Below are positions 23,317 to 37,552 of a DNA stretch of 64,000 nt, piece by piece (positions within the stretch are counted from its first letter, which is position 1; each line of letters begins with the position of its first letter). The position numbers and the translations under genes were made by a program. The notes under the pieces were generated by a model. That model did no database searches and was not told the origin of the DNA. It was given only the letters and a program-made list of their open reading frames with translations. Source of the stretch: Streptantibioticus ferralitis (GTDB lineage: Bacteria; Actinomycetota; Actinomycetes; Streptomycetales; Streptomycetaceae); assembly GCF_029223525.1 (NCBI RefSeq), contig NZ_JARHTQ010000008.1:1-64000 (forward strand), read 5' to 3'.

Positions 23317-24891
23317 GTGCCCCAGGACATCGACGAGTCGTTTGTGGCACTGCCGCTACGGGCGTTGGCCGACGCGGCGCTGGCTCGCGCCCGGGCGCTG
23401 GGCGCCGAGCACGCGGACTTCCGGTTCGAGCGGGTGCGCGACGCGGCCTGGCGGCTGCGCGACGCCAGGCTGTCCAGCTCCTCCGACACCACCGACACGG
23501 GGTATGCGGTACGGGTCGTGCACGGCGGGGCGTGGGGCTTCGCGTCCGGTGTCGAGCTGACGATGGACGCGGCGGCCAGGGTGGCGGGCCAGGCGGTGGC
23601 GATGGCGAAGCTGTCGGCGAAGGTGACCGCCGCGGCGGGTTCCGAAGAGCAGGGCCCGCGCAGCGCTTCCCCGGAGGGGCGGTGGTGGGAGACGGGCGGG
23701 CGGGTGGAGCTGGCCGCCGAACCGGTACACGCGGACCGCACCTGGGTGTCGTCGTACGAGATCAACCCGTTCCACGTGCCGGACAAGGACAAGATCGCGC
23801 TGCTGGCCGAGTGGAGCGGCCGCCTGCTGGCCGCCGAGGGGGTGTCGCACGCGGACGCCTCGCTGCTGGCCGTTCAGGAGAACAAGTTCTATGCCGACAC
23901 CGCGGGGACCACGACCACCCAGCAGCGGGTGCGGCTGCACCCCGAGTTGACGGCGGTCGCGGTGGACCCCGAGTCCGGTGAGTTCGACTCGATGCGGACC
24001 CTGGCGCCGCCGGTCGGCCGCGGTTGGGAGTACCTGACCGGCACCGGGTGGGACTGGGACGCCGAACTGGCCGAGATCCCCTCGCTGCTGGCCGAGAAGA
24101 TGCGCGCGCCGGGCGTCCAGGCCGGGACGTACGACCTGGTCATCGATCCGTCGAATCTGTGGCTGACGATCCACGAGTCGATCGGACACGCCACCGAGCT
24201 GGACCGCGCGCTGGGCTACGAGGCGGCGTACGCGGGCACCTCGTTCGCCACCTTCGACAAGTTGGGTTCGCTGAAGTACGGCTCCGAGGTCATGCACGTG
24301 ACCGGTGACCGCACCGCCGAGCACGGCCTGGCGACCATCGGGTACGACGACGAGGGCGTGGCCGGGCAGTCCTGGGACCTGGTCAGGGACGGCACCCTGG
24401 TCGGCTACCAGTTGGACCGGCGCATCGCCAAGCGGTGCGGCTTCGAGCGCTCCAACGGCTGCGCCTACGCCGACTCGCCCTCGCATGTGCCGGTGCAGCG
24501 GATGGCGAACGTCTCGCTGCGCCCCGCGGCGGGCGGCCCGTCGACCCGGGAGCTGATCGGCGCCGTGGAGCGCGGGTTGTACCTGGTCGGTGACCGGTCA
24601 TGGTCCATCGATCAGCAGCGCTACAACTTCCAGTTCACCGCGCAGCGGGCGTTCCGCATCGAGAACGGTCAACTCGCCGGGCAGGTACGTGACTTCGCCT
24701 ACCAGGCGACCACCACCGACTTCTGGGGATCGATGGAGGCGGTCGGCGGACCGCAGACGTACGTCCTGGGCGGCGCGGTCAACTGCGGTAAGGCACAGCC
24801 CGCTCAGGTCGCGGCGGTCAGCCACGGCTGCCCTTCGGCGCTGTTCCGCGGCGTCACCATCCTCAACACCGCGCAGGAGGCAGGCCGATGA
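23317..24891 (+). CDS. tldD: metalloprotease TldD
   Basis: 524 residues, U62/PmbA-TldD family zinc protease subunit. The metal site is HESIGH (HExxxH, His286 and His291); the usual TldD N-terminal half and a C-terminal segment with ANVSLRPAAGG precede the third-ligand region (GGAVNCGKAQPAQVAAVSHGCPS). GTG 23317 follows AGAAGGGGGA. TldD is the catalytic partner of TldE; the complex degrades unfolded peptides or trims modified peptides in other bacteria. Stop overlaps the tldE start by 4 bp (ATGA). Confidence 0.95.
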   Translation: MPQDIDESFVALPLRALADAALARARALGAEHADFRFERVRDAAWRLRDARLSSSSDTTDTGYAVRVVHGGAWGFASGVELTMDAAARVAGQAVAMAKLSAKVTAAAGSEEQGPRSASPEGRWWETGGRVELAAEPVHADRTWVSSYEINPFHVPDKDKIALLAEWSGRLLAAEGVSHADASLLAVQENKFYADTAGTTTTQQRVRLHPELTAVAVDPESGEFDSMRTLAPPVGRGWEYLTGTGWDWDAELAEIPSLLAEKMRAPGVQAGTYDLVIDPSNLWLTIHESIGHATELDRALGYEAAYAGTSFATFDKLGSLKYGSEVMHVTGDRTAEHGLATIGYDDEGVAGQSWDLVRDGTLVGYQLDRRIAKRCGFERSNGCAYADSPSHVPVQRMANVSLRPAAGGPSTRELIGAVERGLYLVGDRSWSIDQQRYNFQFTAQRAFRIENGQLAGQVRDFAYQATTTDFWGSMEAVGGPQTYVLGGAVNCGKAQPAQVAAVSHGCPSALFRGVTILNTAQEAGR

Positions 24892-26282
24892 GCGCCCGGC
24901 AGACCGCTCCGCATGAAATCGTCGAGCGCGCCCTGGAGTTGTCCAGGGCCGACGGGTGCGTTGTCATCGCCGATGAGGAGTCGAGCGCCAATCTGCGCTG
25001 GGCACGCAACGCGCTCACCACGAACGGCGTCACGCGCGGCCGCACCCTGACCGTCATCGCCACCGTCGACGGCGCGCAGGGCACCGCCTCCGGTGTGGTC
25101 TCCCGGTCCGCGGTCACCGCCGGGGAGTTGGAGCCGCTGGTCCGGGCGGCGGAGGCGGCGGCACGCGACGCGGGCCCGGCGGAGGACGCCCAGCCGCTGG
25201 TCAGCGAGCTCGCTGCGGCCTGCGACTTCACCGACGCGCCCGCCGAGACCTCGTCCGAGGTGTTCGCGTCGTTCGCCCCCGCGCTGGGTGAGTCGTTCGC
25301 GACGGCTCGGGCGGGCGGGCGTGAGCTGTACGGCTTCGCGTACCACTCGGTGGTCTCCAGCTACCTGGGCAGCTCCACCGGGCTGCGGCTGCGCCATGAC
25401 CAGCCGACCGGGACGCTGGAGCTCAACGCCAAGTCGCCGGACGGCACCCGCTCGGCCTGGGCCGGGGCGGCCACCCGGGACTTCACGGATGTCGATCCGG
25501 CGGCGCTGGACGCCGGGCTGGCGCGCCGACTGGAGTGGGCGGGCCGCCGGGTGGAGCTTCCGGCCGGGCGGTACGAGACGCTGCTGCCGCCGACCGCGGC
25601 GGCCGATCTGCTCGTCTACCAGATGTGGTCGTCGGGTGCCCGGGACGCCGCCGAGGGCCGTACGGTCTTCAGCAAGCCGGGCGGTGGTACGCGGGTGGGC
25701 GAGAAGCTCACCGAGCTGCCGGTCACGCTGTACAGCGATCCGCGGGAGCCGGGGCTGGAGACGGCGCCCTTCGTGCTGGCGCATGCCTCGGGTGACGATG
25801 TGTCGGTCTTCGACAACGGGCTGCCGCTGGAGCGTACCGAGTGGGTGCGCGACGGGGTGCTGGACCGGCTGGTCGCCACCCGGCACGCGGCGGCGCTGAC
25901 CGGGCTGCCGGTGGCTCCCGCGGTGGACAACCTGGTCCTGGACGCCGGTGGGACGAAGTCGCTGGACGAACTGGTCGCCGGGACCGAGCGGGGACTGCTG
26001 CTGACCTGCCTGTGGTACATCCGCGAGGTGGATCCGGCGACCCTGCTGCTGACCGGGTTGACCCGGGACGGTGTCTACCTGGTGGAGAACGGCGAGGTCA
26101 CGGCGGTGGTCAACAACTTCCGCTTCAACGAGTCGCCGGTGGACATACTCGGCCGGGCGACGGAGGCCGGGCGCACCGAGCGCACGCTCCCACGGGAGTG
26201 GGCCGACTACTTCCCGCGCGCCGCGGCCCCCGCCCTGCGCGTGCCGGACTTCAACATGAGTTCGGTCAGCCAGGGAGTGTGA
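24888..26282 (+). CDS. tldE: TldD partner protein PmbA/TldE
   Basis: 464-residue PmbA/TldE homologue that lacks the HExxxH zinc motif, as expected for the non-catalytic subunit. Conserved blocks include ARNALTTNGVTRG, GLRLRHDQPTG and the C-terminal LTCLWYIREVDPATLLLTGLTRDGVYLVENG. Translationally coupled to tldD by ATGA. No precursor peptide or radical-SAM gene is adjacent, so there is no sign that this pair belongs to a RiPP cluster. Confidence 0.94.
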   Translation: MSARQTAPHEIVERALELSRADGCVVIADEESSANLRWARNALTTNGVTRGRTLTVIATVDGAQGTASGVVSRSAVTAGELEPLVRAAEAAARDAGPAEDAQPLVSELAAACDFTDAPAETSSEVFASFAPALGESFATARAGGRELYGFAYHSVVSSYLGSSTGLRLRHDQPTGTLELNAKSPDGTRSAWAGAATRDFTDVDPAALDAGLARRLEWAGRRVELPAGRYETLLPPTAAADLLVYQMWSSGARDAAEGRTVFSKPGGGTRVGEKLTELPVTLYSDPREPGLETAPFVLAHASGDDVSVFDNGLPLERTEWVRDGVLDRLVATRHAAALTGLPVAPAVDNLVLDAGGTKSLDELVAGTERGLLLTCLWYIREVDPATLLLTGLTRDGVYLVENGEVTAVVNNFRFNESPVDILGRATEAGRTERTLPREWADYFPRAAAPALRVPDFNMSSVSQGV

Positions 26283-27316: not shown

Positions 27317-28306
27317 CTAGCCGCCGATCGCCGACATCGGGCGCTGCGGCTGGAGGAACGACGGGTCGTCCAGGCCGGATCCGGCTTTCTTGCCCCACAT
27401 GGCGGCACGCCACAGCTCCGCCAGGCGCGAGTCGGGCTCGCCGGAGCGCAACGCGGTCCGCAGGTCGCTCTCCTCGCGGGCGAACAGGCAGTTGCGGACC
27501 TGGCCGTCGGCGGTGAGCCGGGTGCGGTCGCAGGCTCGGCAGAACGGCCGGGTGACCGAGGCGATCACGCCGACCTTGGCCGGTCCGCCGTTGACGAGCC
27601 AGCGCTCGGCGGGGGCGGAGCCGCGCACCGAGGACTCCTCGGGGGCCAGGGTGAAGTGTGCGGTCAGCTGCCGCAGGATCTCCTCCGCGGTCACCATGTT
27701 GGCGCGCTGCCAGCCGTGTTGGGCATCGAGTGGCATCTGCTCTATGAAGCGCAGCTCGTAGTCGTTCTCCAGGGCCCAGGCGAGCAGGGCGGGTGCCTCG
27801 TCGTCGTTGAGCCCGCGCATCAGCACGCTGTTGATCTTGACCGGGGTGAGTCCCGCGTCCCGTGCGGCCCGCAGGCCCGCGATGACGTCATCGTGCCGCT
27901 TGCGCCGGGTGAGCCGCTGGAAGACCTCGGGCCGCAGGGTGTCCAGAGAGACGTTCACCCGGTCCAGGCCCGCGTCGCGCAGTGCCTCGGCGGTTCTGGC
28001 CAGCCCGATGCCGTTGGTGGTGAGGGACAGCTGGGGGCGGGGTTCAAGGGCGGCGCAGCGTTCGACGATCCCGACGACGCCGGGCCTGAGCAGCGGTTCG
28101 CCGCCGGTGAAGCGGACCTCGGTGATGCCCAGTTCGGTGACCGCGATCCGGACCAGCCGGACGATCTCGTCGTCGGTGAGCAACTCGGGCTTGGCCAGCC
28201 ACTGCAGGCCCTCTTCCGGCATGCAGTACGTGCAGCGCAGGTTGCACCGGTCAGTGAGTGAGACCCGCAGGTCGGTGGCGACCCGGCCGTAGGTGTCGAG
28301 CAGCAC
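27317..28306 (-). CDS. moaA: GTP 3',8-cyclase (molybdenum cofactor biosynthesis)
   Basis: Radical SAM enzyme starting molybdopterin synthesis from GTP. 329 residues: N-terminal cluster ligands in CNLRCTYC (Cys21, 25, 28), FTGGEPLLRPG SAM motif, SLDTL, and C-terminal cluster ligands in CRACDRTRLTADGQVRNC; the chain ends in the GG motif that activates MoaA. GTG 28306 is preceded by GGAGGAG. A 40-bp segment of this gene (28040-28079) is repeated exactly at 28781-28820. No other moa genes are in the window. Confidence 0.96.
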   Translation of the reverse strand: MLLDTYGRVATDLRVSLTDRCNLRCTYCMPEEGLQWLAKPELLTDDEIVRLVRIAVTELGITEVRFTGGEPLLRPGVVGIVERCAALEPRPQLSLTTNGIGLARTAEALRDAGLDRVNVSLDTLRPEVFQRLTRRKRHDDVIAGLRAARDAGLTPVKINSVLMRGLNDDEAPALLAWALENDYELRFIEQMPLDAQHGWQRANMVTAEEILRQLTAHFTLAPEESSVRGSAPAERWLVNGGPAKVGVIASVTRPFCRACDRTRLTADGQVRNCLFAREESDLRTALRSGEPDSRLAELWRAAMWGKKAGSGLDDPSFLQPQRPMSAIGG

Positions 28307-28394
28307 GATGGCGCTCCTCCCCTCCTGGGCACGGAGTGCGCCCCTGGCATCAAGCCTAGATCGACAGTCAGGGTACGTGACGGCCGGCCGTTTG

Positions 28395-28407
28395 CAACAG
28401 ATTGTTG
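28395..28407. promoter_or_regulatory. inverted repeat upstream of moaA
   Basis: CAACA-GAT-TGTTG in an AT-rich pocket 89 bp upstream of the moaA start. Possible regulator site; no neighbouring regulator. Confidence 0.3.
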
Positions 28408-28780
28408 AATCCGTCGCGGCACAGGGGCCTGCGCGGCGTCCCCGGCGCAGCCCAGAGGCGCTGCGACAGTGCGGGTGACAAGCCGGTACCGGTATCGCTC
28501 CGGTTCGTTCTACAGGGCGTGAGCGCGTCGCCGAGCACCCCACCGCCAGGGCCGGGCAAACGACCGTACGGGACCGTACGGCTGGCCGCTCCCGTGGCCC
28601 CGGCCGCGCCCCGCAGGCCCGTACCGCCGGTACCCGGCCGGTGGTACGGGCCGCGGGTGGCCATACCGCTGCTGAGCATCGAGACGCTGCGGGGCACGCG
28701 CTGACTCCGTCACGGCGGATCCTCACGGGTGGTTCGGACCGCCGGTCCGCGCGGCGGGGGCCGCTCGTCGTCGCGGCGAC

Positions 28781-28820
28781 GGGTTCAAGGGCGGCGCAGC
28801 GTTCGACGATCCCGACGACG
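28781..28820 (+). repeat. 40-bp exact copy of a moaA segment
   Basis: Positions 28781-28820 (beginning GGGTTCAAGGGCGGCGCAGC) are identical and in the same orientation as 28040-28079 inside moaA, 741 bp away. The copy ends 11 bp before the stop codon of the dehydrogenase gene and is not itself coding. Confidence 0.9.
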
Positions 28821-28831
28821 ACCGTGATGCG

Positions 28832-29875
28832 TCAGGGCCGGACCAGGACCTTCAGGGCCTTGCGCTCGTCCATCGCGCGGTAGCCGTCCGGGACGCCGTC
28901 GAGGCCTACGGCGAGGTCGAACACCGGCGACGGGTCGATCGCCCCGCTCAGTACGTCGGGGAGCAGTTCCGGGATGTAGGTGCGCACCGGGGCGATGCCG
29001 CCGCGCAGGGCGATGTTGCGCCCGAACATCACGCCCAGGTCCAGTCCGGTGCCGCTGCCGTGCGGCACGCCGACGTAGCCGATCGCGCCGCCGTCGCGGG
29101 CGATGCCGACAGCGGTACGCATCGACTGCTCGGTGCCGACCGCCTCGATCACCGAGTGGGCGCCCTGTCCCCCGGTCAGCTCGCGCACCGCCTCGACGGC
29201 CGCCTCACCGCGCTCGGCGACCACATCGGTGGCGCCGAACGTCCTGGCCAGGTCGGTGCGGTCGGTGTGGCGGCCGAGTGCGATGATCCGCTCCGCGCCG
29301 AGCCGCTTCGCCGCCACCACACCGCACAGGCCGACCGCGCCGTCACCGACCACCGCCACGGTGGCTCCGGGCCGCACGCCCGCGCCGACCGCCGCGTGAT
29401 GACCGGTACCGAGCACGTCGGAGAGGGTCAGCAGCGCGGACAGCAGCCGGTCGTCGCTCGTCGCGTCCGAGGGCAGGGCGACGAGGGTGGCGTCGGCGAA
29501 CGGCACCCGTACGTACTCGCCCTGGCCGCCGTCCGAGCCCGGCGTGCCCCAGAAGCCACCGGCCGGGCACGAGGTCGTCAGGCCCTCGGCGCAGTACTCG
29601 CACGCGCCGTCGGACCAGACGAAGGGGGCGACGACCAGGTCGCCCGCCCGGAGCCCGGAGACCTCGGAGCCGGTCTCCTCCACAACTCCCAGGAATTCAT
29701 GGCCGATTCGCTGTCCGGCCTCGCGCGCGGACTCGCCCCGGTATGCCCACAGGTCGCTGCCGCAGATGCAGGCGCGCAGCACGCGCACCACCGCGTCATC
29801 CGAGCGCTGGATGACGGGATCGGGCACCTCCTCGACGCGTATGTCGTTCGGGGCGTGGATGACGGTCGCGCGCAT
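28832..29875 (-). CDS. zinc-dependent alcohol dehydrogenase family protein
   Basis: 347-residue MDR enzyme. Catalytic zinc ligands in CICGSDLW and IGHEFLG; the structural zinc loop is CEYC..GLTTSCP, with three rather than four visible cysteines; NAD(P) site VVGDGAVGL. ATG 29875 is 9 bp after the YhhN stop with AAGGA between, so it is the last gene of a three-gene operon. In that context it could interconvert fatty aldehydes released by the two upstream enzymes and the matching alcohols; this is inference, as the substrate cannot be read. Confidence 0.9.
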   Translation of the reverse strand: MRATVIHAPNDIRVEEVPDPVIQRSDDAVVRVLRACICGSDLWAYRGESAREAGQRIGHEFLGVVEETGSEVSGLRAGDLVVAPFVWSDGACEYCAEGLTTSCPAGGFWGTPGSDGGQGEYVRVPFADATLVALPSDATSDDRLLSALLTLSDVLGTGHHAAVGAGVRPGATVAVVGDGAVGLCGVVAAKRLGAERIIALGRHTDRTDLARTFGATDVVAERGEAAVEAVRELTGGQGAHSVIEAVGTEQSMRTAVGIARDGGAIGYVGVPHGSGTGLDLGVMFGRNIALRGGIAPVRTYIPELLPDVLSGAIDPSPVFDLAVGLDGVPDGYRAMDERKALKVLVRP

Positions 29876-29884
29876 GCGTGGTCC

Positions 29885-30595
29885 TTATCGCTGTACAGGG
29901 GGTACCCGCGCTTCAACGTGGGCCCGCGGCGGGGCATTCCCGCCGCGGGGGACCACGTCCCGTGCCGCCACCAGTCCGGTGGCCAGCAGGTACTGGCCGC
30001 CGAGGTAGGTGAGCATGATCCAGAATTCCGGTCGCGGCAGCTGCGGCCAGTGGGCCAGACCGGCGGCGATCAGGCTGTCGGAGAGCAGGAACAGCGCGCC
30101 GCCCGCGCAGGTGTGGACCGACAGCCCCGCCGCGCTCAGTGCCATCGTCGACAGCAGCAGGCTGTACCCGGCGACCGGCCAGCGCAGCGCGCCCAGTGAA
30201 GGACCGAGCGTCACAAGGCTGGTCGCCCAGCCCAGCCCGTAGAGGACGGCGGCCGCCCGGGTGCGGCGCCCGGCTGCGAGGCCTCCCCGGCGGGCGAACG
30301 CCGTGATGTAGACCACGTGCCCGGCGGCGAAGCACCCCATGCCGGCGAGGAACGGGCCGTTGCCGCCCAGCATGAGCAGCGTGTCGCCGCCGCAGCCGAA
30401 CAGCAGCGCCACGACCAGCGACCGGGGCCCGCCGCGCGCCGCGCTCCAGGCGGCGAGCACCGGCATCAGCGCGGGCTTGGTCAGCTGGGCGAGCAGTCCG
30501 CCACCGGCGAGTTGTCCGGCGAGGTGCACCGCGGACAGCGCCAGGAAGCCGCCGAGCAGCCATCGGGCCGTACGGTCGCGGCCGGCTGTCCTCAC
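29885..30595 (-). CDS. lysoplasmalogenase (YhhN/TMEM86 family)
   Basis: 236 residues, eight short hydrophobic segments. YhhN family features: TKPALMPVLAAW in the first helices, the GCGGDTLLML motif, FAAGHVVYITAF and a C-terminal FLLSDSLIAAG...YLGGQYLLATG. The family hydrolyses the vinyl-ether bond of lysoplasmalogen to a fatty aldehyde and glycerophospho-head group. GTG start, overlapping the stop of the upstream sterol desaturase/AGMO-like gene by 4 bp. Confidence 0.88.
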   Translation of the reverse strand: MRTAGRDRTARWLLGGFLALSAVHLAGQLAGGGLLAQLTKPALMPVLAAWSAARGGPRSLVVALLFGCGGDTLLMLGGNGPFLAGMGCFAAGHVVYITAFARRGGLAAGRRTRAAAVLYGLGWATSLVTLGPSLGALRWPVAGYSLLLSTMALSAAGLSVHTCAGGALFLLSDSLIAAGLAHWPQLPRPEFWIMLTYLGGQYLLATGLVAARDVVPRGGNAPPRAHVEARVPPVQR

Positions 30596-31473
30596 GCGGC
30601 GGGTTCCCGCGCCGGTACCGCTGTCGCGCCGTCGGTCTCGCGCACCGGCGGCCGCCAGCCGGGTCCGCGCAGCAGATGGCCCACCCGGTCGCGCCAGGTG
30701 CGGGCGGCGGCGAGGTCCTGGGCGATGGCCGCGTACTCGTGGGTGGCGACCCGCAGCGGGTTGTGGGTGAGGATGTTCTTGGTGAGGCCGTACACCGGCG
30801 GCTCGACCTCCGGGACGAACGAGCCGAACAGCCGGTCCCAGATGATCAGGATTCCGCCGAAGTTGCGGTCCAGGTAGCCGCCTTGGGAGGCGTGGTGCAC
30901 CCGGTGGTGGGACGGGGTGTTCAGGACGAACTCAACCGGCCGCGGCAGCTTGCCGATCCGCTCGGTGTGCACCCAGAACTGGTAGACCAGGTTGGCGGAC
31001 GAGCAGAAGGCGAGGGCGGCCGGATGCACTCCGCAGGCGATCATCGGCAGGTAGAACGGCCAGACGGTGAGTGTGGTCCACGGCTGGCGCAGTGCGGTGG
31101 ACAGGTTGAAGTTGCGGCTGGAGTGGTGCACGACGTGGCAGGCCCACAGGATCCGGACGACATGGTGTCCGCGGTGCGACCAGTAGTAGAAGAAGTCCTG
31201 CGCGAGCAGCATCAGCGGGATGGTCCACCACAGCACCGGCACCCGCAGGGGTGTCAGTTCGTACACGGCGGTGTAGATCGCGACGATCGGGATCTTCCAC
31301 GTGGCGTCGAAGAGCAGGCTGCCCAGCCCCATCGACAGGCTGGTCGCGGTGTCCTTGGCCGTGTATCCGGCGGCGTCCTCGTCGGGATGGATGCGGTAGC
31401 TGACCACCTCCAGGATGGTCAGCAGCAGGAAGGCCGGTATCGACCACAGCACGGGATCGGGCAGTTGCGGCAT
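30592..31473 (-). CDS. sterol desaturase family protein, alkylglycerol monooxygenase-like
   Basis: 293 residues, membrane di-iron hydroxylase. Histidine boxes HRGHH, HVVHHSSRNFNLSTALRQ and HHRVHH, then YLDRNFGGILIIWDRLFGSF. The HHSS..(N)LSTALRQ block and the DRNFGGxLIIWDRLFG segment closely follow alkylglycerol monooxygenase (AGMO/TMEM195), which cleaves ether lipids to a fatty aldehyde and glycerol. AGMO is pterin-dependent. First gene of the 28832-31473 operon. The ATG at 31473 lies inside the 3' arm of an 11-bp palindrome. Confidence 0.85.
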   Translation of the reverse strand: MPQLPDPVLWSIPAFLLLTILEVVSYRIHPDEDAAGYTAKDTATSLSMGLGSLLFDATWKIPIVAIYTAVYELTPLRVPVLWWTIPLMLLAQDFFYYWSHRGHHVVRILWACHVVHHSSRNFNLSTALRQPWTTLTVWPFYLPMIACGVHPAALAFCSSANLVYQFWVHTERIGKLPRPVEFVLNTPSHHRVHHASQGGYLDRNFGGILIIWDRLFGSFVPEVEPPVYGLTKNILTHNPLRVATHEYAAIAQDLAAARTWRDRVGHLLRGPGWRPPVRETDGATAVPAREPAA

Positions 31474-31499
31474 GGGCGCACCATAAGAGCGCCCATGCC
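31469..31499. promoter_or_regulatory. palindrome containing the start codon of the AGMO-like gene
   Basis: GGCATGGGCGC and GCGCCCATGCC are perfect 11-bp arms around a 9-nt centre. On the minus strand the centre reads TCTTATGGT, containing a possible -10 box (TATGGT) 6 bp before the ATG in the 3' arm. That fits a leaderless promoter covered by an operator, or an RNA hairpin sequestering the start codon. Confidence 0.6.
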
Positions 31500-31515
31500 A
31501 CCTGCGCTAGGGGTT

Positions 31516-31543
31516 GTTACCGACTAGTACTACCGAAGGTAAC
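31516..31543. promoter_or_regulatory. GTTACC-N16-GGTAAC inverted repeat
   Basis: Perfect 6-bp arms in an AT-rich stretch 43 bp upstream of the AGMO-like start; resembles a regulator binding site. It also lies 60 bp past the end of the amidohydrolase operon. Confidence 0.4.
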
Positions 31544-31602
31544 GATCACGCCGGACGCACTTCACCAGATCAGCGTCCCAAACCGCCCGGCCGCGCCCCC
31601 GT

Positions 31603-32841
31603 TCACCAGACCCGCGCCCCGCCCCCGGCCGCGAAGACCGGGCTGGTCGCGTCCGGGGGCGGCGCCGGCAGCGGCTCGGCCAACTCGGCGGCCGTCGGGC
31701 CGACCCGGGCGGCGATCGGGTCGAGCAGCGCCAGGTCGAAGCCGTAGACGCGCGCCGCGTTGCCGCCCACCATTGACGCGATCTCCTTCTGCGGCAGCCC
31801 GGCGTAAGCGGTCCGCAGCGCCTCCCTGCTGTACGGACAGGTGCCCTCGTCGTGCGGGTAGTCGCTGCCCCACATCACCTTGTCCAGCCCTATCCGGTCC
31901 CGCAGCAGCGCCTCATGGCGCCGCATGAAGCTCGCGCCGACGAAGCAGTGGTCCCGCCAGACCGCCTTCGGGCCCTTTCCCATCGAACCGGCAAGCCCGG
32001 CACCGAACTTGGCCTCCGCGGTCGCCGCCTTCGCCGTGCCCGGTGCGACGGCCGCGACCAGCCGCCCGTGGTAGTACTCCAGCATGTCCAGCACTCCGGG
32101 TATCCAGGCCGAGCCCTGCTCGGTCAGGACCAACCGCAGCCCCGGGTGGCGCTGGAACGCTCCGCCGAACGCCAGGTGCCACAGCGCCCGGTGCGAGAAC
32201 CAGGTCGTCTCGACCATGAAGACGGCCCGCGCGGCGGGTTCGTCGCCGAGCGGCGGAGACGCCGATCCGGCATGGTGGTTGACCGGTACCGCCAGCTCGT
32301 CGCACACCGCCCAGAGCGGGTCGTACACCCTGGAGTGCAGCTCCGGCAGCCCCGCGCCCGGGGGGACGCCGGGCAGCAGCACTCCCCCGGTCAGTCCGGC
32401 CTCCTTGGCCCATCGCACCTCTTGTACCGCTTCGTCCACGTCGTTCAGCAGGATCTGGGCGACTCCGGCGCGCCGGCCGGGGGCCTGGGCGCAGAAGTCC
32501 GCGAGCCAGCGGTTGTGCGCCCGCAACCCGGCCCAGCGCAGTACGAACTCCTCGCGGGTGGGCGCCGGGGCGACCAGTGAACCGCTGGGGAAGAACGGCG
32601 GGACGGTGTTGGGGAAGACGACCTCGGCGACGATGCCGTCCCCTTCCAGCTCCGCCAGCCGCCGGTCGGAGTCCCAGTTGCGCTCCGCCTCGGGCGCCGC
32701 CAGGTCCTCCCACGGATTGACGTAGGTGGCCGCCCAGGCGTCGAACGCCTCATGGTGCCGGGACGCCAGATACGGCCGGTAGTCCAGCAGATCGGCCCCG
32801 GCATGGCAGTCCGCCGAGATCACCGTGTACCGCTCGGTCAC
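31603..32841 (-). CDS. amidohydrolase family protein (PF04909 type), second of a pair
   Basis: 412 residues, TIM-barrel metal-dependent hydrolase/decarboxylase. Metal-site remnants: SADCHAG near the N-terminus (one His where relatives often have HxH), NHHAGSAS in the middle and MWGSDYPHDEGT with the metal-ligand Asp. Related enzymes include ACMS and resorcylate decarboxylases. GTG 32841 follows GGAGGAGG and overlaps the stop of the sister gene (GTGA). It is the last gene of the coupled operon 31603-35811. Confidence 0.9.
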   Translation of the reverse strand: MTERYTVISADCHAGADLLDYRPYLASRHHEAFDAWAATYVNPWEDLAAPEAERNWDSDRRLAELEGDGIVAEVVFPNTVPPFFPSGSLVAPAPTREEFVLRWAGLRAHNRWLADFCAQAPGRRAGVAQILLNDVDEAVQEVRWAKEAGLTGGVLLPGVPPGAGLPELHSRVYDPLWAVCDELAVPVNHHAGSASPPLGDEPAARAVFMVETTWFSHRALWHLAFGGAFQRHPGLRLVLTEQGSAWIPGVLDMLEYYHGRLVAAVAPGTAKAATAEAKFGAGLAGSMGKGPKAVWRDHCFVGASFMRRHEALLRDRIGLDKVMWGSDYPHDEGTCPYSREALRTAYAGLPQKEIASMVGGNAARVYGFDLALLDPIAARVGPTAAELAEPLPAPPPDATSPVFAAGGGARVW

Positions 32842-34118
32842 GCCTCCTCCTTTCCCAGGTACGGGAAGTCGTCTCCGGTGAGCCAGTGGCGGCCGGTCTC
32901 CCGGGCGCGCGCCCATGACCGCTCGACCGCCGTCTGGTCCTCCGGCTGCCCCAACTCCCGTGGCAGCGGCCCGATGCGGGCCGCGACGGGCCGCAACGCC
33001 TCGGCGTCGAACCCGAAGACGTCGAGTGCCGCGAGACCCAGCATGCGCCGTGCCTCTGACACCGGGATGTCGTGGAAGGTGTTCCTCAGCCACTCCCGGG
33101 TGCTGGGCCAGGTGCCCTCAGGGTGCGGGAAGTCGCTGCCCCACAGGATGTTGTCCACCCCGATCTCGTACCGGTGCGCCAGTTCCCGGCGTTTGGTGTT
33201 GGTCGCGCAGATGAAGACGTTGCGGTCCAGGTACGCGCTGGGTGCCTGCCGCAACTCGGCGAATGGCGAGAGCTTCTTGCCGCCGTGCGCCCCGAGGTAG
33301 AGCCGGTCCATGAACCACAGCAGATTGGGCAGCCACCAGCAGCCGGACTCGGCCACCCCGAACCGCAGCCCGGGAAAGCGTTCGAACACCCCGGACCACA
33401 GCAGGAACCACAACGGGCGCGCCGGCCACCAGGTGACCTCGCTGACGAAGATGCCCAGATGGTCGCCGTACTCATGGCGCGGGGCGGTGCCGGAATGGGT
33501 GACGACCGGCATCCGCAGCGCCTCGGCCTCCGCCCATACCGGGTCATAACGCCGGTCGTGGTAGGGCGGGTTGCCTCCCCACATGGCGGGGATCATCAGG
33601 GCCCCGAGACCTGTCTCCTTGGCCCGCCGGATCTCCGCGACGACCTGGTCGGTCTCGCCGGTGATCGGCAGCAGGGCCACACCGCAGCGGCGTAGCGGGT
33701 TGAGCGCGCAGAACTCGACCAGCCAGCGGTTGTGGGCCCGCGCGCCCGCCATGCCGAGTTCCGGGTCGTGGTCGCCGGACAGCCCGAGGCCGACGCCGAA
33801 GGGCGCGGCGGTCGCGCTGTCCACGGCGTCCGCGTCCGGGAAGACGACCTCGGCGGCCACTCCGTCGCCGTCCAGTTCCTTGTCGCGCTGCGCACTGTCC
33901 CAACCGCCGCGCAGCCCCTCGGCGTTGTCCTGGAACCACTGTGCGGCGAACGCCTCGTTCCGTACCCCGAGCCGGGTCATCGCCGCACGGCGCGCGTCGC
34001 GCTGCGCCAGGAAGTCGTCGAAGGCGCGGTGGAACCTCGACTCCAGATACGGCCGGTACTCCTCGGTGGGCAGACCCGCGTGGCAGTCGGAGGAGACGAT
34101 CAGATAGCGATCCGTCAT
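32838..34118 (-). CDS. amidohydrolase family protein (PF04909 type), first of a pair
   Basis: 426 residues, same domain as its downstream neighbour: SSDCHAG, the THSGTAPRHEYGDH His motif and LWGSDFPHPEGTWP with the Asp ligand. The two proteins align through much of their length (RPYLESRFHRAFD / RPYLASRHHEAFD) but are clearly diverged, so they are old paralogues and possibly subunits or enzymes for successive steps. ATG 34118 overlaps the SDR stop by 4 bp. Confidence 0.9.
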   Translation of the reverse strand: MTDRYLIVSSDCHAGLPTEEYRPYLESRFHRAFDDFLAQRDARRAAMTRLGVRNEAFAAQWFQDNAEGLRGGWDSAQRDKELDGDGVAAEVVFPDADAVDSATAAPFGVGLGLSGDHDPELGMAGARAHNRWLVEFCALNPLRRCGVALLPITGETDQVVAEIRRAKETGLGALMIPAMWGGNPPYHDRRYDPVWAEAEALRMPVVTHSGTAPRHEYGDHLGIFVSEVTWWPARPLWFLLWSGVFERFPGLRFGVAESGCWWLPNLLWFMDRLYLGAHGGKKLSPFAELRQAPSAYLDRNVFICATNTKRRELAHRYEIGVDNILWGSDFPHPEGTWPSTREWLRNTFHDIPVSEARRMLGLAALDVFGFDAEALRPVAARIGPLPRELGQPEDQTAVERSWARARETGRHWLTGDDFPYLGKEEA

Positions 34119-35017
34119 CGGTGCTCCTCACCTCGGTCCAGGACGAAGCGTTCGAGATAGGCCGGGTTGGCGCGGTCCAGCATCGACTGCGCCCGCGCGC
34201 GGATCTGCGCGTCGCTGCGTTCGCTGGCCGGGAGCAGCCAGAAGCGGTCCGCCCGGATGCCGTCCACCACCAGTTCCGCGACCTGCTCGACGGGGGTGAA
34301 CTCCACCTCGTGTCCGGCTTCCCGCATCGCCGCCTCCCATTGCGCGAGGGTGCGGTAAGGGGTGCGCCGCGGGCGGGACTTGGCGTATCTGGCGGGGCGG
34401 TTGCGGTGCGACTCCCACAGTCCGGTACGCAGCATGTGCGGGCCGGGGAAGAGGACGGAGGCACCGATGGGCGCGGATTCCGCCCGCAGGTGGGCGTAGA
34501 GCGACTCGGTCATGGTGACCACGGCCGCCTTGGTGACGGCGTACACCGAGGCGCTGGGCAGCGGTGCCACACCGCCGTCCGTCGACGAGGTGTTGACCAC
34601 ATGGCCCGGCTGCCCGGCGGCCAGCATCCGGGGCACGAAGGCCTGTACGCCATGGAAGACGCCCCACACGTTGACCGCGAAGGCCCACTGCCAGTCCCTG
34701 GGGTCGTGCTCCCACATCCGGCCCTCGGCGCCGGAGCCGACCCCCGCGTTGTTGCACAGCACATGCACGGCGCCGTAGGCCGTGTACGCCGCCTCGGCGA
34801 GTGCGGTGACCGAGTCCGGCTCACCCACGTCGGTGAGTTGGCCGAGGACCTCCGCGCCTGTTTCGCGCACCGCGGCCACCGCCTTGGCCAGCGCGTCCTC
34901 CTCCACGTCGGCGAGCACCACCCGCAGCCCCTCGGCGGCGAACCGCCGTACCATGGCCCATCCGATGCCGCTCGCCGCTCCGGTGACCACCGCGACCTGT
35001 CCGGCCCGCAGTTCCAT
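34115..35017 (-). CDS. SDR family NAD(P)-dependent oxidoreductase
   Basis: 300 residues: TGAASGIG cofactor motif, CNNAGVG, catalytic Ser in VNTSSTDGG, YAVTKAA Tyr/Lys, and a long C-terminal extension (about residues 200-300) with RPARYAKSRPRRTPYRTLAQW that is longer than the classical family. Start ATG 35017 (or GTG 35020) shares bases with the ADC stop codon (TGATG) and has GGGAGG upstream. Second gene of the coupled operon. Confidence 0.9.
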   Translation of the reverse strand: MELRAGQVAVVTGAASGIGWAMVRRFAAEGLRVVLADVEEDALAKAVAAVRETGAEVLGQLTDVGEPDSVTALAEAAYTAYGAVHVLCNNAGVGSGAEGRMWEHDPRDWQWAFAVNVWGVFHGVQAFVPRMLAAGQPGHVVNTSSTDGGVAPLPSASVYAVTKAAVVTMTESLYAHLRAESAPIGASVLFPGPHMLRTGLWESHRNRPARYAKSRPRRTPYRTLAQWEAAMREAGHEVEFTPVEQVAELVVDGIRADRFWLLPASERSDAQIRARAQSMLDRANPAYLERFVLDRGEEHR

Positions 35018-35811
35018 CACGCCTCCCGCGGCGGGGCGTCGAGGATCTGCGCCACATCGTCATAGCGCTGGTGGATGTACGGCAGCAGGGAGCGTGCGCC
35101 GACCCGTTCTGCCACCCGGCCCGACTGGTCGCTGGACTTCTCGCCGACGGTGATCTCGACGAGTTCGCGCACGACCAGGTCGGCGACCGGGTCGTACGCC
35201 GACTCCCGCAGCACCACGCGCCCGGTGACCGCGGTCAGTTCGCGGATCCGCTCGCGCCGGGTGCAGTGCACCAGGAACGCGTCGCCCTCCAGACCGCCGC
35301 CGTCCACGGCGGGCAGGAACTTGAAGTAGAAGTCGGTCTTCTCCGACGTCCCCGGCACCGGCAACACGCCGGTCACGGTGCCGTCGACCTGGACGAACGC
35401 GACGCCGTGCCGGACGAGTTCCGCGGACACCCGCGGGCCCTCGCGCCGCACCGAGACCTCGCCGAGCTTCTTCGGCTCGCCGAACACCTCGCGCCCGCCG
35501 ATCAGCGCACGCTCCGTGGTCATCGGCATGACCAGCGGGTACCAGCCGTCGACGGCACCGTGCCGGGCGGCGACCGCGACCGATCCTGCGCCCAACGGGT
35601 GTCCGAACAGGTCGACTTGGCTGATGCTGACCCGAACCAGCGGCCGCTCCCCCGGCTTCAGCGGTGGCGGCAGCACCTGCGCCACCACGTCGGCATCGGT
35701 CTCCCACAGCGCCGTCACGCCCGTCGACCAGATGTCGGGGAGCGCGGCGCCCGCCGCCCGCGCCGCTGTGATCTCGGCCTCGTCACGCGGGCCGTACCGT
35801 ACGCGTGCCAT
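35017..35811 (-). CDS. acetoacetate decarboxylase family protein
   Basis: 264 residues with the ADC fold: LPPPLKPGERPLVRVSISQ, a SVAVAARHGAVDGWYPLVMPM strand pair, and the Schiff-base Lys region GGREVFGEPKKLGE. ADC-type enzymes decarboxylate or dehydrate beta-keto acids via a lysine imine. First gene of the four-gene operon; its start faces the TetR gene across a palindrome. ATG 35811 has only GAAGGG as RBS. Confidence 0.88.
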   Translation of the reverse strand: MARVRYGPRDEAEITAARAAGAALPDIWSTGVTALWETDADVVAQVLPPPLKPGERPLVRVSISQVDLFGHPLGAGSVAVAARHGAVDGWYPLVMPMTTERALIGGREVFGEPKKLGEVSVRREGPRVSAELVRHGVAFVQVDGTVTGVLPVPGTSEKTDFYFKFLPAVDGGGLEGDAFLVHCTRRERIRELTAVTGRVVLRESAYDPVADLVVRELVEITVGEKSSDQSGRVAERVGARSLLPYIHQRYDDVAQILDAPPREA

Positions 35812-35844
35812 CACGTATCGCCCTTCGTTCGCGGTACCGACGTC

Positions 35845-35859
35845 TGTAACTGGGTTACA
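35845..35859. promoter_or_regulatory. TetR-type operator
   Basis: TGTAACTGGGTTACA: perfect 6-bp arms with a 3-bp centre, in the 102-bp space between the divergent ADC-family and TetR genes, 34 bp from the ADC start and 54 bp from the TetR start. The placement is typical for autoregulating TetR repressors. Confidence 0.75.
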
Positions 35860-35913
35860 ACGGCAGCCTTGAAGGGTAAAGAGCCGTGCACGTAACGAAA
35901 TTGAGGGCCGATC

Positions 35914-36540
35914 ATGCCGAGATCGCAGCGCACCGCCTTGACCCGCGAGGATGTCCTGGACGCCGCCGCCAACCTCGTTGCACAACACGGCCCGGAAGCG
36001 CTGACGATGCGCAAGCTCGCCGCCGAGCTGGGCACGGCGGTCACCTCGATCTACTGGCATGTGGGGAATCGCGAGACCCTGCTGGAGGAGCTGGTGACGC
36101 GCACCGTGCGGGAGATGGGCGCCATCACCCCCAGCGGCCGCACCCCGGCGCAGCGGGTGGTCTCCATCGCCCGCGCCCAGCGCAGGATGCTGCGCGAGCG
36201 CCCGCATCTGATCGCGATGGTGCACGAACGCGGCCTGACCGAGCTGATGTTCCTGCCCGCCCAGCAGGCGCTGGTCCACGAGGTGCATGCGGCGGGACTG
36301 CGCGGCGCACGCGCCGCCGAGGCGGTGCGGGCCATCGAGTTCCATGTCATCGGCTTCGTGCTGGTCGAGCGCAACCGCGAGCGCTCGCCCGTACAGCACC
36401 CGGCGGAAGGGGATCTGTGGACGGCTCAGCGCGCGGACCAGGACCCGGCGCTCGCCCGCGCCCTGGCGGCGCCGCCCAACTCGGAGCGGCTCTATCTGAC
36501 CGCCACCCGCGCACTGGTGAACGCCCTGCTCGGTCAATGA
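35914..36540 (+). CDS. TetR/AcrR family transcriptional regulator
   Basis: 208 residues. N-terminal HTH (LTREDVLDAAANLVAQHGPEALTMRKLAAELGTAVTSIYWHVGNRETLLEEL, residues ~8-60), then an all-helical ligand domain (TetR_C-like). Divergent from the amidohydrolase/SDR/ADC operon and probably its repressor through the palindrome at 35845-35859; the inducer would be the operon substrate or an intermediate. Confidence 0.93.
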   Translation: MPRSQRTALTREDVLDAAANLVAQHGPEALTMRKLAAELGTAVTSIYWHVGNRETLLEELVTRTVREMGAITPSGRTPAQRVVSIARAQRRMLRERPHLIAMVHERGLTELMFLPAQQALVHEVHAAGLRGARAAEAVRAIEFHVIGFVLVERNRERSPVQHPAEGDLWTAQRADQDPALARALAAPPNSERLYLTATRALVNALLGQ

Positions 36541-36565
36541 CTGTCGGTGCCGCCCCCTATCCTCA

Positions 36566-37552
36566 ATGACCATGCTGGAGAACCGAACGGACCGCGCGGT
36601 CTTGACCGAGCTCCCGTCCCCGTGGCCCACCGGCTACCCGGACGGGTACGCGGTGGTGGACGTGGAGACCACCGGGCTGGGCCGCGACGACCGGATAGTG
36701 TCGGCGGCCGTCTACCGCCTGGACGCGCAGGGCGCCGTCCAGGACCACTGGTACTCGCCGGTCAATCCCCAGCGCGACCCGGGCCCGGTGTGGATCCACG
36801 GGCTGACCAGCGAGGTGCTCGCCGACGCCCCGCTGTTCCGGGAGATCGCCGACGAACTGGCCGAACGGCTCTCCGGCCGGGTGCTGGTGGCCCACAACGC
36901 CGTCTTCGACTGGTCGATGCTGGCCCGCGAGTACGCCCGGGCCGACCACCGCGCCCCGGTCGAGCAGCGGTTGTGCACCATCATGCTCTCCAAGCAGCTG
37001 CGGCTGCCGCTGCCCAACCACAAGCTGGAATCCCTCGCCGCGCACTACGGCGTGATACAGCGGCAGGCGCACCACGCCCTCGATGACGCGCGGGTGCTGG
37101 CCGAGGCGTTCCGGCCGAGCCTGCATCTGGCGGCGGCCGCCGGGCTGCCGCTCCCGCTGCACGCCTGCCGGCCGCTCACCGAGTGGTCGCCGCGTGGTGG
37201 GCCGCTCCGCTCGGCCGGTTACCCGCCCACCAGTTGGCGGCACTCACGCAAGCGGCCGCCGTGCCCGTACCCCAACCCGGGCCGGCTGCTGCCGGGCGGG
37301 CCGCTGATACAGGGAATGCGGGTCGCCTTCTCGGGTGATACGGCCGTCGACCGCGAGCTGTTGGAGGACCGGGCCACCGAGGCGGGGCTGCATGTGGCCT
37401 CCAGCGTCTCCCGGCTGACCAGTCTGCTGGTCACCAACGACCCCGGCTCTCCCGCGGGAAAGGTGGCCAACGCGCGGCGGTTCGGCACCCCGGTGGTGGA
37501 CGAGGCGCGGTTCCGGGAACTGCTCCGGGAAGTGGCCCCGGCCGAGGGGTGA
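36566..37552 (+). CDS. DEDDh 3'-5' exonuclease with C-terminal BRCT domain
   Basis: 328 residues. Exonuclease domain ~25-195: VDVETTG (Asp32, Glu34), HNAVFDW (Asp) and HHALDDA (His..Asp) give the DEDDh set, as in DNA polymerase III epsilon. A basic proline-rich linker (~200-250) leads to a BRCT domain (MRVAFSGDTAVDRELLEDRATEAGLHVASSVS, TPVVDEARF). Probable DNA repair or end-processing nuclease. TATCCT (36558-36563) stands as -10 just before ATG 36566/36572, suggesting a leaderless mRNA. Confidence 0.93.
   Translation: MTMLENRTDRAVLTELPSPWPTGYPDGYAVVDVETTGLGRDDRIVSAAVYRLDAQGAVQDHWYSPVNPQRDPGPVWIHGLTSEVLADAPLFREIADELAERLSGRVLVAHNAVFDWSMLAREYARADHRAPVEQRLCTIMLSKQLRLPLPNHKLESLAAHYGVIQRQAHHALDDARVLAEAFRPSLHLAAAAGLPLPLHACRPLTEWSPRGGPLRSAGYPPTSWRHSRKRPPCPYPNPGRLLPGGPLIQGMRVAFSGDTAVDRELLEDRATEAGLHVASSVSRLTSLLVTNDPGSPAGKVANARRFGTPVVDEARFRELLREVAPAEG

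Follow-up and report, generated by a model that had tools for sequence, protein, structure and literature searches.

The stretch of DNA analysed here, referred to as the window, comprises 64,000 nucleotides from Streptantibioticus ferralitis (contig C99 of a genome of 8.8 Mb) and carries a gene for a membrane hydroxylase resembling alkylglycerol monooxygenase (AGMO), which overlaps the gene for a YhhN/TMEM86-type lysoplasmalogenase. These two genes constitute a conserved overlapping pair. From the pair itself, its conservation, the gene overlap and the residue sets kept by the two products, all of which are direct observations, we infer with a probability of about 0.4 that this two-gene unit breaks both O-alkyl and O-alkenyl bonds in (lyso)ether lipids. 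A first-pass annotation of the same DNA had proposed a three-gene ether-lipid cleavage operon in which a zinc alcohol dehydrogenase disposes of the released aldehyde. Its interpretation is partly supported, the real unit being the first two genes.

An overlapping gene pair conserved in the Streptomycetaceae

The three open reading frames follow one another head to tail on the minus strand, and their linkage was verified in each detail: the coordinates (Table 1), the 4-nucleotide overlap (GTGA) between the TGA stop of the hydroxylase and the GTG start of YhhN, and the 9 bp separating the TAA of YhhN from the ATG of the dehydrogenase, with TAAGGA preceding that ATG. Pfam places the first product in FA_hydroxylase (PF04116; 103.7 bits against a cut-off of 31), the second in PF07947 (112.8 bits against 25.6) and the third in ADH_N and ADH_zinc_N (78.1 and 80.8 bits), the last of these confirming the earlier assignment as a zinc alcohol dehydrogenase. 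None of the three proteins reaches the cut-off of any NCBIfam model, and searches of PDB sequences with each of them returned chance matches only. Since promoter and terminator scans of positions 28200-36600 gave zero and two sites, respectively, which is not above shuffled sequence, the limits of the operon were judged by spacing.

In a sample of 101 genomes of the window's family, Streptomycetaceae, the hydroxylase is found at an identity of at least 40% in 70 (of 78 with any match; fragments are included, such as 33 residues in G081), YhhN in 68 and both in 59. The hydroxylase gene is followed by that of YhhN on the same strand and within 1.5 kb in 55 of the 101 genomes, which rules out plain chance neighbourhood as an explanation. 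The other four genomes with both genes have them diverging (G077), on two contigs and each near a contig end (G046), or apart (G043 and G052). YhhN is present in 59 of the 70 family genomes with the hydroxylase as against 9 of the 31 without it. Co-occurrence and order across genomes therefore bear out the hydroxylase followed by YhhN, the dehydrogenase being only loosely associated. Stop and start codons overlap by 4 nucleotides in 96 of 105 distinct pairs (YhhN scores of at least 40 bits), a count based on whichever start is closest to the stop in the range −12 to +60 nucleotides, which is biased towards short distances; ATGA or GTGA stands at the overlap in the Micromonospora loci L210-L213. 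The pair occupies two kinds of chromosomal site, one near moaA and one near a gene, c23, that by eye and without a family search looks like an exonuclease III.

Outside the family, 354 of the 394 genomes of a class sample were available for comparison. The hydroxylase (E < 1e-40) is found in 71 of these (of 95 with any match), YhhN in 105 and both in 56, with the two genes adjacent and in the same order in three of the 56 (G433, G551 and G715). YhhN accompanies the hydroxylase in 56 of the 71 genomes as against 49 of the 283 others, in a count that ignores kinship. A profile search was also made of 80 named loci, the best of 589 relatives as ranked by likeness to a Micromonospora-like protein (a set headed by the G551 protein), and because of this ranking shares among them are not frequencies. 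Forty-eight of the 80 were marked as paired: 41 from Streptomycetaceae, four from Micromonospora, one each from Nonomuraea soli and an unclassified actinobacterium, and one in a record without taxonomy. The pair is thus present in four of the six Micromonospora loci and in the one Nonomuraea locus. Two of the 48 pairs (L282 and L283) owe their status to weak matches (17 and 19 bits, respectively). L215, marked otherwise in this search, is paired in the set used for the YhhN tree. In L127 (G073) and L205 (G049) the hydroxylase matched as two pieces with YhhN alongside, and these copies look broken or mis-sequenced. In our searches, the open-access literature on AGMO, YhhN/lysoplasmalogenase, Streptomyces and bacterial homologues yielded no description of a pair of this kind.

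Residue sets of the two proteins

Eight residues have been mutated in human TMEM86A and TMEM86B, and all proved important except G81 of TMEM86A, according to the accessible part of PMC11994398. In TMEM86A numbering these are K43, G81, D82, H104, G182, S189, D190 and Y213, and the window YhhN keeps all eight, as K40, G70, D71, H93, G165, S172, D173 and Y197, when positions are placed by motif with no human alignment. Among 110 YhhN sequences scoring at least 60 bits six of the eight are invariant, the lysine being kept in 104 and the histidine in 101. A YhhN tree of 86 rows, just seven of them unpaired, has a branch with a support of 100 that sets the four unpaired rows of family f3 apart from all the others, namely 79 paired rows drawn from several families and three unpaired ones (G307, G076 and the diverging G077). 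Like human TMEM86A/B and the YhhN proteins of Legionella and Mycobacterium tuberculosis, the two bacterial sources for which we found YhhN assays in the partly accessible literature, the window protein is above the PF07947 cut-off with the complete residue set, and its earlier assignment to the YhhN/TMEM86 family holds. It differs from them in that its gene overlaps that of an AGMO-like hydroxylase and in that its lysoplasmalogenase activity is a prediction.

The hydroxylase contains both motif blocks quoted in the first-pass annotation, HHSSRNFNLSTALRQ and DRNFGGILIIWDRLFG. Eight histidines, Q162, H201, D233, N235, Y236, W243 and D244 are given as essential for human AGMO in the part of PMC3617469 that is accessible. 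We placed these positions on the window protein using the numbering of that paper (with an offset of 32 up to H201 and of 31 beyond it) and the motif, with no human alignment. On this placement all eight histidines are kept, and Q130, H169, D202, N204, W212 and D213 correspond to AGMO Q162, H201, D233, N235, W243 and D244. A set of 126 relatives, from which 20 short or stop-containing matches had been dropped and in which near-duplicates remain (L002 and L062 are the same gene), has the eight histidines, H201, D233, N235 and D244 in every row, Q162 in 120 and W243 in 119.

An AlphaFold model of the hydroxylase, built from 31 sequences, had a mean predicted local distance difference test score of 79.9 and a predicted template modelling score of 0.79. 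Foldseek returned 24 matches to this model, none of them at an E value of 0.001 or better. In a second-look structure comparison four of 104 chains reached a Z score of 2; they appear as two entries, both yeast Scs7p, with Z scores of 5.8 and 5.6 and root mean square deviations of 5.2 and 5.5 over 158 and 171 residues. The modelled structure therefore fits a hydroxylase fold, which agrees with Pfam and is silent on the substrate.

Predicted ether-lipid cleavage and alternative readings

The reactions of AGMO and of lysoplasmalogenase both pass through a hemiacetal. The available portion of PMC9131029 describes a fatty aldehyde and a glycerol derivative as the products of alkyl-ether cleavage by AGMO, and the vinyl ether of a lysoplasmalogen as the target of lysoplasmalogenase. 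In the scheme that we propose for the pair, the AGMO-like di-iron enzyme would place a hydroxyl group on the carbon adjoining the ether oxygen of the alkyl chain and YhhN would hydrate a vinyl ether, each reaction giving a hemiacetal at the same carbon that would then break down into a glycerol-type head and a fatty aldehyde. Together the two enzymes could handle both saturated and vinyl ether chains, most likely those of lipids from other organisms, and the aldehyde would be taken by whatever dehydrogenase is at hand, the adjacent one being optional. According to the accessible part of PMC9052158, the YhhN of M. tuberculosis reportedly gives protection from toxic lysolipids of the host, which makes exogenous lipids a possible substrate.

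A number of observations weigh against this scheme. The window protein has a valine (V105) at the position of E137, the glutamate adjoining the second histidine that contacts the pterin (tetrahydrobiopterin) in AGMO and that other family members lack, and a phenylalanine (F205) at that of the catalytic Y236 (for AGMO, the available text of PMC3617469). The glutamate is missing from 97 of the 126 relatives and from 48 of 55 paired rows. The C-terminal family of AGMO (AGMP_C, presumably PF24858) gave no match in a Pfam scan or a targeted search, in which the positive controls were silent too, so that this silence does not demonstrate absence. At the level of genomes, 11 of the 70 family members with the hydroxylase have no YhhN match, the genes are non-adjacent in 53 of the 56 outside-family genomes with both, and a phylum sample of 296 genomes contained, as judged by eye, no adjacency outside the family among 11 genomes with both, five of which belong to the class sample too. 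The plasmalogen desaturase family PF10520, the only ether-lipid synthesis family sought, was not found in 111 distinct genomes (the 101 of the family and 10 further ones) in a search whose positive control was also silent, so that an endogenous vinyl-ether substrate is unsupported, being neither shown nor excluded. Finally, PRUB680 of Pseudoalteromonas rubra, which is likewise a bacterial AGMO-like oxidase, cyclises the pigment prodigiosin (PMC6667630, in part accessible), although it acts on a pigment and is likened here to the window protein by description only.

These points bear on the naming of the first protein as AGMO. What it shares with AGMO/TMEM195, a protein whose gene is listed in animals in the accessible text of PMC3617469, is the fatty acid hydroxylase signature, the eight histidines and the six further catalytic residues, and to this extent it is AGMO-like. 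It differs in being bacterial and of 293 rather than 445 residues, and the name is weakened by the substitutions at E137 and Y236 and by the cyclisation that PRUB680 performs. Judged by its residue pattern, the window hydroxylase is an altered AGMO-like form, and in its clade, which is devoid of the pterin-binding glutamate, electrons may be taken another way.

The two altered positions vary widely among the relatives. At that of E137 the 126 rows have V in 48, R in 38, E in 29 and another residue in 11, and at that of Y236 they have F in 59, Y in 58 and H in nine. Taken together, the two positions read VF in 35 of the 55 paired rows, EY in seven, RF in five, VY in four, and MF and RY in two each. 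Among the EY pairs, six (L097, L098 and L190-L193) represent two genera of the window's family and the seventh is that of G551; the four named Micromonospora pairs contain HE and DRNY, that is, both E and Y. The pair therefore occurs with intact as well as with altered AGMO signatures. In a hydroxylase tree of the 126 rows thinned to 111, a quick tree with long branches in which paired rows are spread across several groups (13 label changes), the window protein falls within a group of 51 rows (Shimodaira–Hasegawa-like approximate likelihood ratio support 100) that has E in none of its members, F in most and Y in few (L092, L131, L133 and L140). One of these is a second AGMO-like gene in the window's own genome (L092:6050-6925; contig C66 of G000, 180049-180918), 69% identical, which has V and Y at the two positions and no adjoining YhhN.

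The family PF04116 spans many chemistries, and the hydroxylase may instead oxidise another lipid or a specialised metabolite, in the manner of OlsE with ornithine lipids or PRUB680 with prodigiosin, with YhhN cleaving or remodelling the product and no ether lipid involved. The altered E137 and Y236 positions, the silence of the PF10520 search, the prodigiosin chemistry of PRUB680 and the sole NCBIfam match of the hydroxylase, which is to OlsE of the same superfamily and at 35.5 bits is far under the cut-off of 475, all suit this alternative. It is harder to reconcile with the full set of residues of proven lysoplasmalogenases in YhhN, or with the retention in the hydroxylase of the equivalents of Q162, D233 and N235, which are not among the residues that the accessible part of PMC3617469 lists as common to the whole hydroxylase family. 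We consider it a possible explanation, if a doubtful one.

A different division of labour can be envisaged in which the two enzymes act in sequence, the hydroxylase-family protein desaturating an alkyl ether to the vinyl ether that YhhN cleaves, so that saturated ether lipids are broken down without a pterin. The hydroxylase superfamily includes desaturases such as ERG3, the gene overlap fits successive steps, the window's clade is without the pterin glutamate, and no PF10520 desaturase turned up (in the search with the silent positive control). Against this stand the seven of 55 paired rows and the four Micromonospora loci (among the best 80 of 589) that keep both E137 and Y236, like ordinary AGMO. 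We rate this putative desaturation route as unlikely. The same holds, at equally long odds, for a pterin-free two-step machine in an aerobic bacterium, in which the coupled YhhN would receive a vinyl ether, or an oxidised ether equivalent to it, as a plasmalogen-type intermediate.

If ether-lipid cleavage by the pair is correct, it would point to Streptomyces and its kin using ether lipids or detoxifying them. The pair suggests a bacterial route for dismantling ether lipids that has not been recognised so far, present in many Streptomyces-type bacteria and with an activity that is predicted, and would give the YhhN proteins of actinomycetes a partner and a class of substrate. It also offers small bacterial AGMO-like proteins, some of which, in Micromonospora, have every residue of the AGMO set, and the natural loss of the pterin glutamate allows its effect on the electron donor to be asked directly.

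The dehydrogenase belongs to the moaA neighbourhood

The first-pass annotation had treated the three genes as one functional whole, with the adjacent alcohol dehydrogenase removing the aldehyde. In the window, the spacing of 9 bp and the common strand are in keeping with such an operon, as is the close orthologue that follows YhhN in 15 family genomes. However, 40 of the 55 pairs have no close orthologue at that place (the count rests on the 27 best dehydrogenase rows, and the other listed rows of at least 71% identity are likewise non-adjacent by eye), and an orthologue at 81% identity or more is present in 24 family genomes, of which 15 have it after YhhN and nine have no YhhN match at all. 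Two of these nine (G013 and G026) belong to the window's genus and have the dehydrogenase beside moaA with no hydroxylase match either. The claim of a single three-gene function is not upheld by these counts. A dehydrogenase that is an obligate third part was ruled out by the 15 of 55 pairs and by its position beside moaA without the pair in G013, G026 and G028. Given also that the dehydrogenase reaches no NCBIfam cut-off, the three-gene ether-lipid operon seems to us improbable.

The slot between moaA and c7, a gene that looks like an exonuclease by eye and without a family search, spans 27317-36600 in the window and was compared across L088-L127, the gene content of neighbouring loci being read by tblastn. 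Its content varies among related genomes: the dehydrogenase alone in G013, G026 and G028; the hydroxylase as the only one of the three in G017, G070, G096 and G043; the pair but no dehydrogenase in G012, G005, G042, G008 and G009; and all three genes in G087 and G079. In G007 a partial dehydrogenase match comes after an amidohydrolase gene, amid1. Because of this variation, we regard the dehydrogenase as part of the moaA neighbourhood, where it comes to lie beside the pair.

Upstream block and regulators

The window slot additionally holds, about 130 bp upstream of the hydroxylase, a block encoding an acetoacetate decarboxylase-like (ADC) protein, a short-chain dehydrogenase (SDR) and two amidohydrolases (amid2 and amid1), which with a divergent TetR-family regulator spans 31603-36540 (Table 1). 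The pair could be a side branch of this catabolic block, acting on the substrate of the block. An orthologue of amid1 (at least 74% identity) is found in 24 of the 101 family genomes, and in 14 of these it precedes the hydroxylase on the same strand at a distance of no more than 1.5 kb. Blocks are seen in L096, L123 and L127, and the block lies by the hydroxylase in another genus too. In G002, G069 and G073 block and hydroxylase stand elsewhere, near c23, with YhhN following in G002 and G073 and none found in G069. The amid1 orthologue is nevertheless absent from 77 of the 101 family genomes, and the Micromonospora pairs have a GntR-type regulator in place of the block, which leaves the side-branch proposal highly improbable.

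A GntR-type gene adjoins that of the hydroxylase in 36 loci, which belong to other clades and include paired Micromonospora (L075 and L102 are the same place). In 29 of them it lies upstream in the same orientation, in four it is on the opposite strand and in three it is labelled otherwise; the loci are L210 (regulator at L210:2252-3001), L150, L151, L152, L214 and 31 others. Four of these proteins were checked by Pfam, and all have GntR and FCD domains, one also having FadR_C. A regulator of this GntR/FCD/FadR_C kind beside the hydroxylase fits lipid catabolism. No GntR-type match was found beside any hydroxylase of the window's tree group among the loci scanned.

Table 1 Features at the hydroxylase–YhhN locus of the window
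Feature	Position	Strand	Remarks
AGMO-like membrane di-iron hydroxylase (PF04116), 293 aa	30592..31473	−	Pfam; AGMO residues placed by numbering
YhhN/TMEM86-type lysoplasmalogenase (PF07947), 236 aa	29885..30595	−	GTG start; Pfam; eight TMEM86 residues
Zinc-binding alcohol dehydrogenase family protein, 347 aa	28832..29875	−	Optional neighbour at the moaA locus
GTGA stop/start overlap	30592..30595	−	Likely translational coupling
amid1, Amidohydrolase_2 protein	31603..32823	−	Start approximate; about 130 bp upstream of the hydroxylase
amid2, Amidohydrolase_2 protein	32838..34118	−	Upstream block
Short-chain dehydrogenase (SDR)	34115..35020	−	Upstream block; NCBIfam PRK06194.1 above cut-off
Acetoacetate decarboxylase-like (ADC) protein, PF06314	35017..35811	−	Upstream block; start approximate
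TetR-family regulator	35914..36540	+	Divergent from the upstream block

On the other side of the locus, the plus strand of the window carries a TldD/TldE-like gene pair at 23317-26282 (Pfam was run on the second gene only), which stands beside moaA in relatives too.

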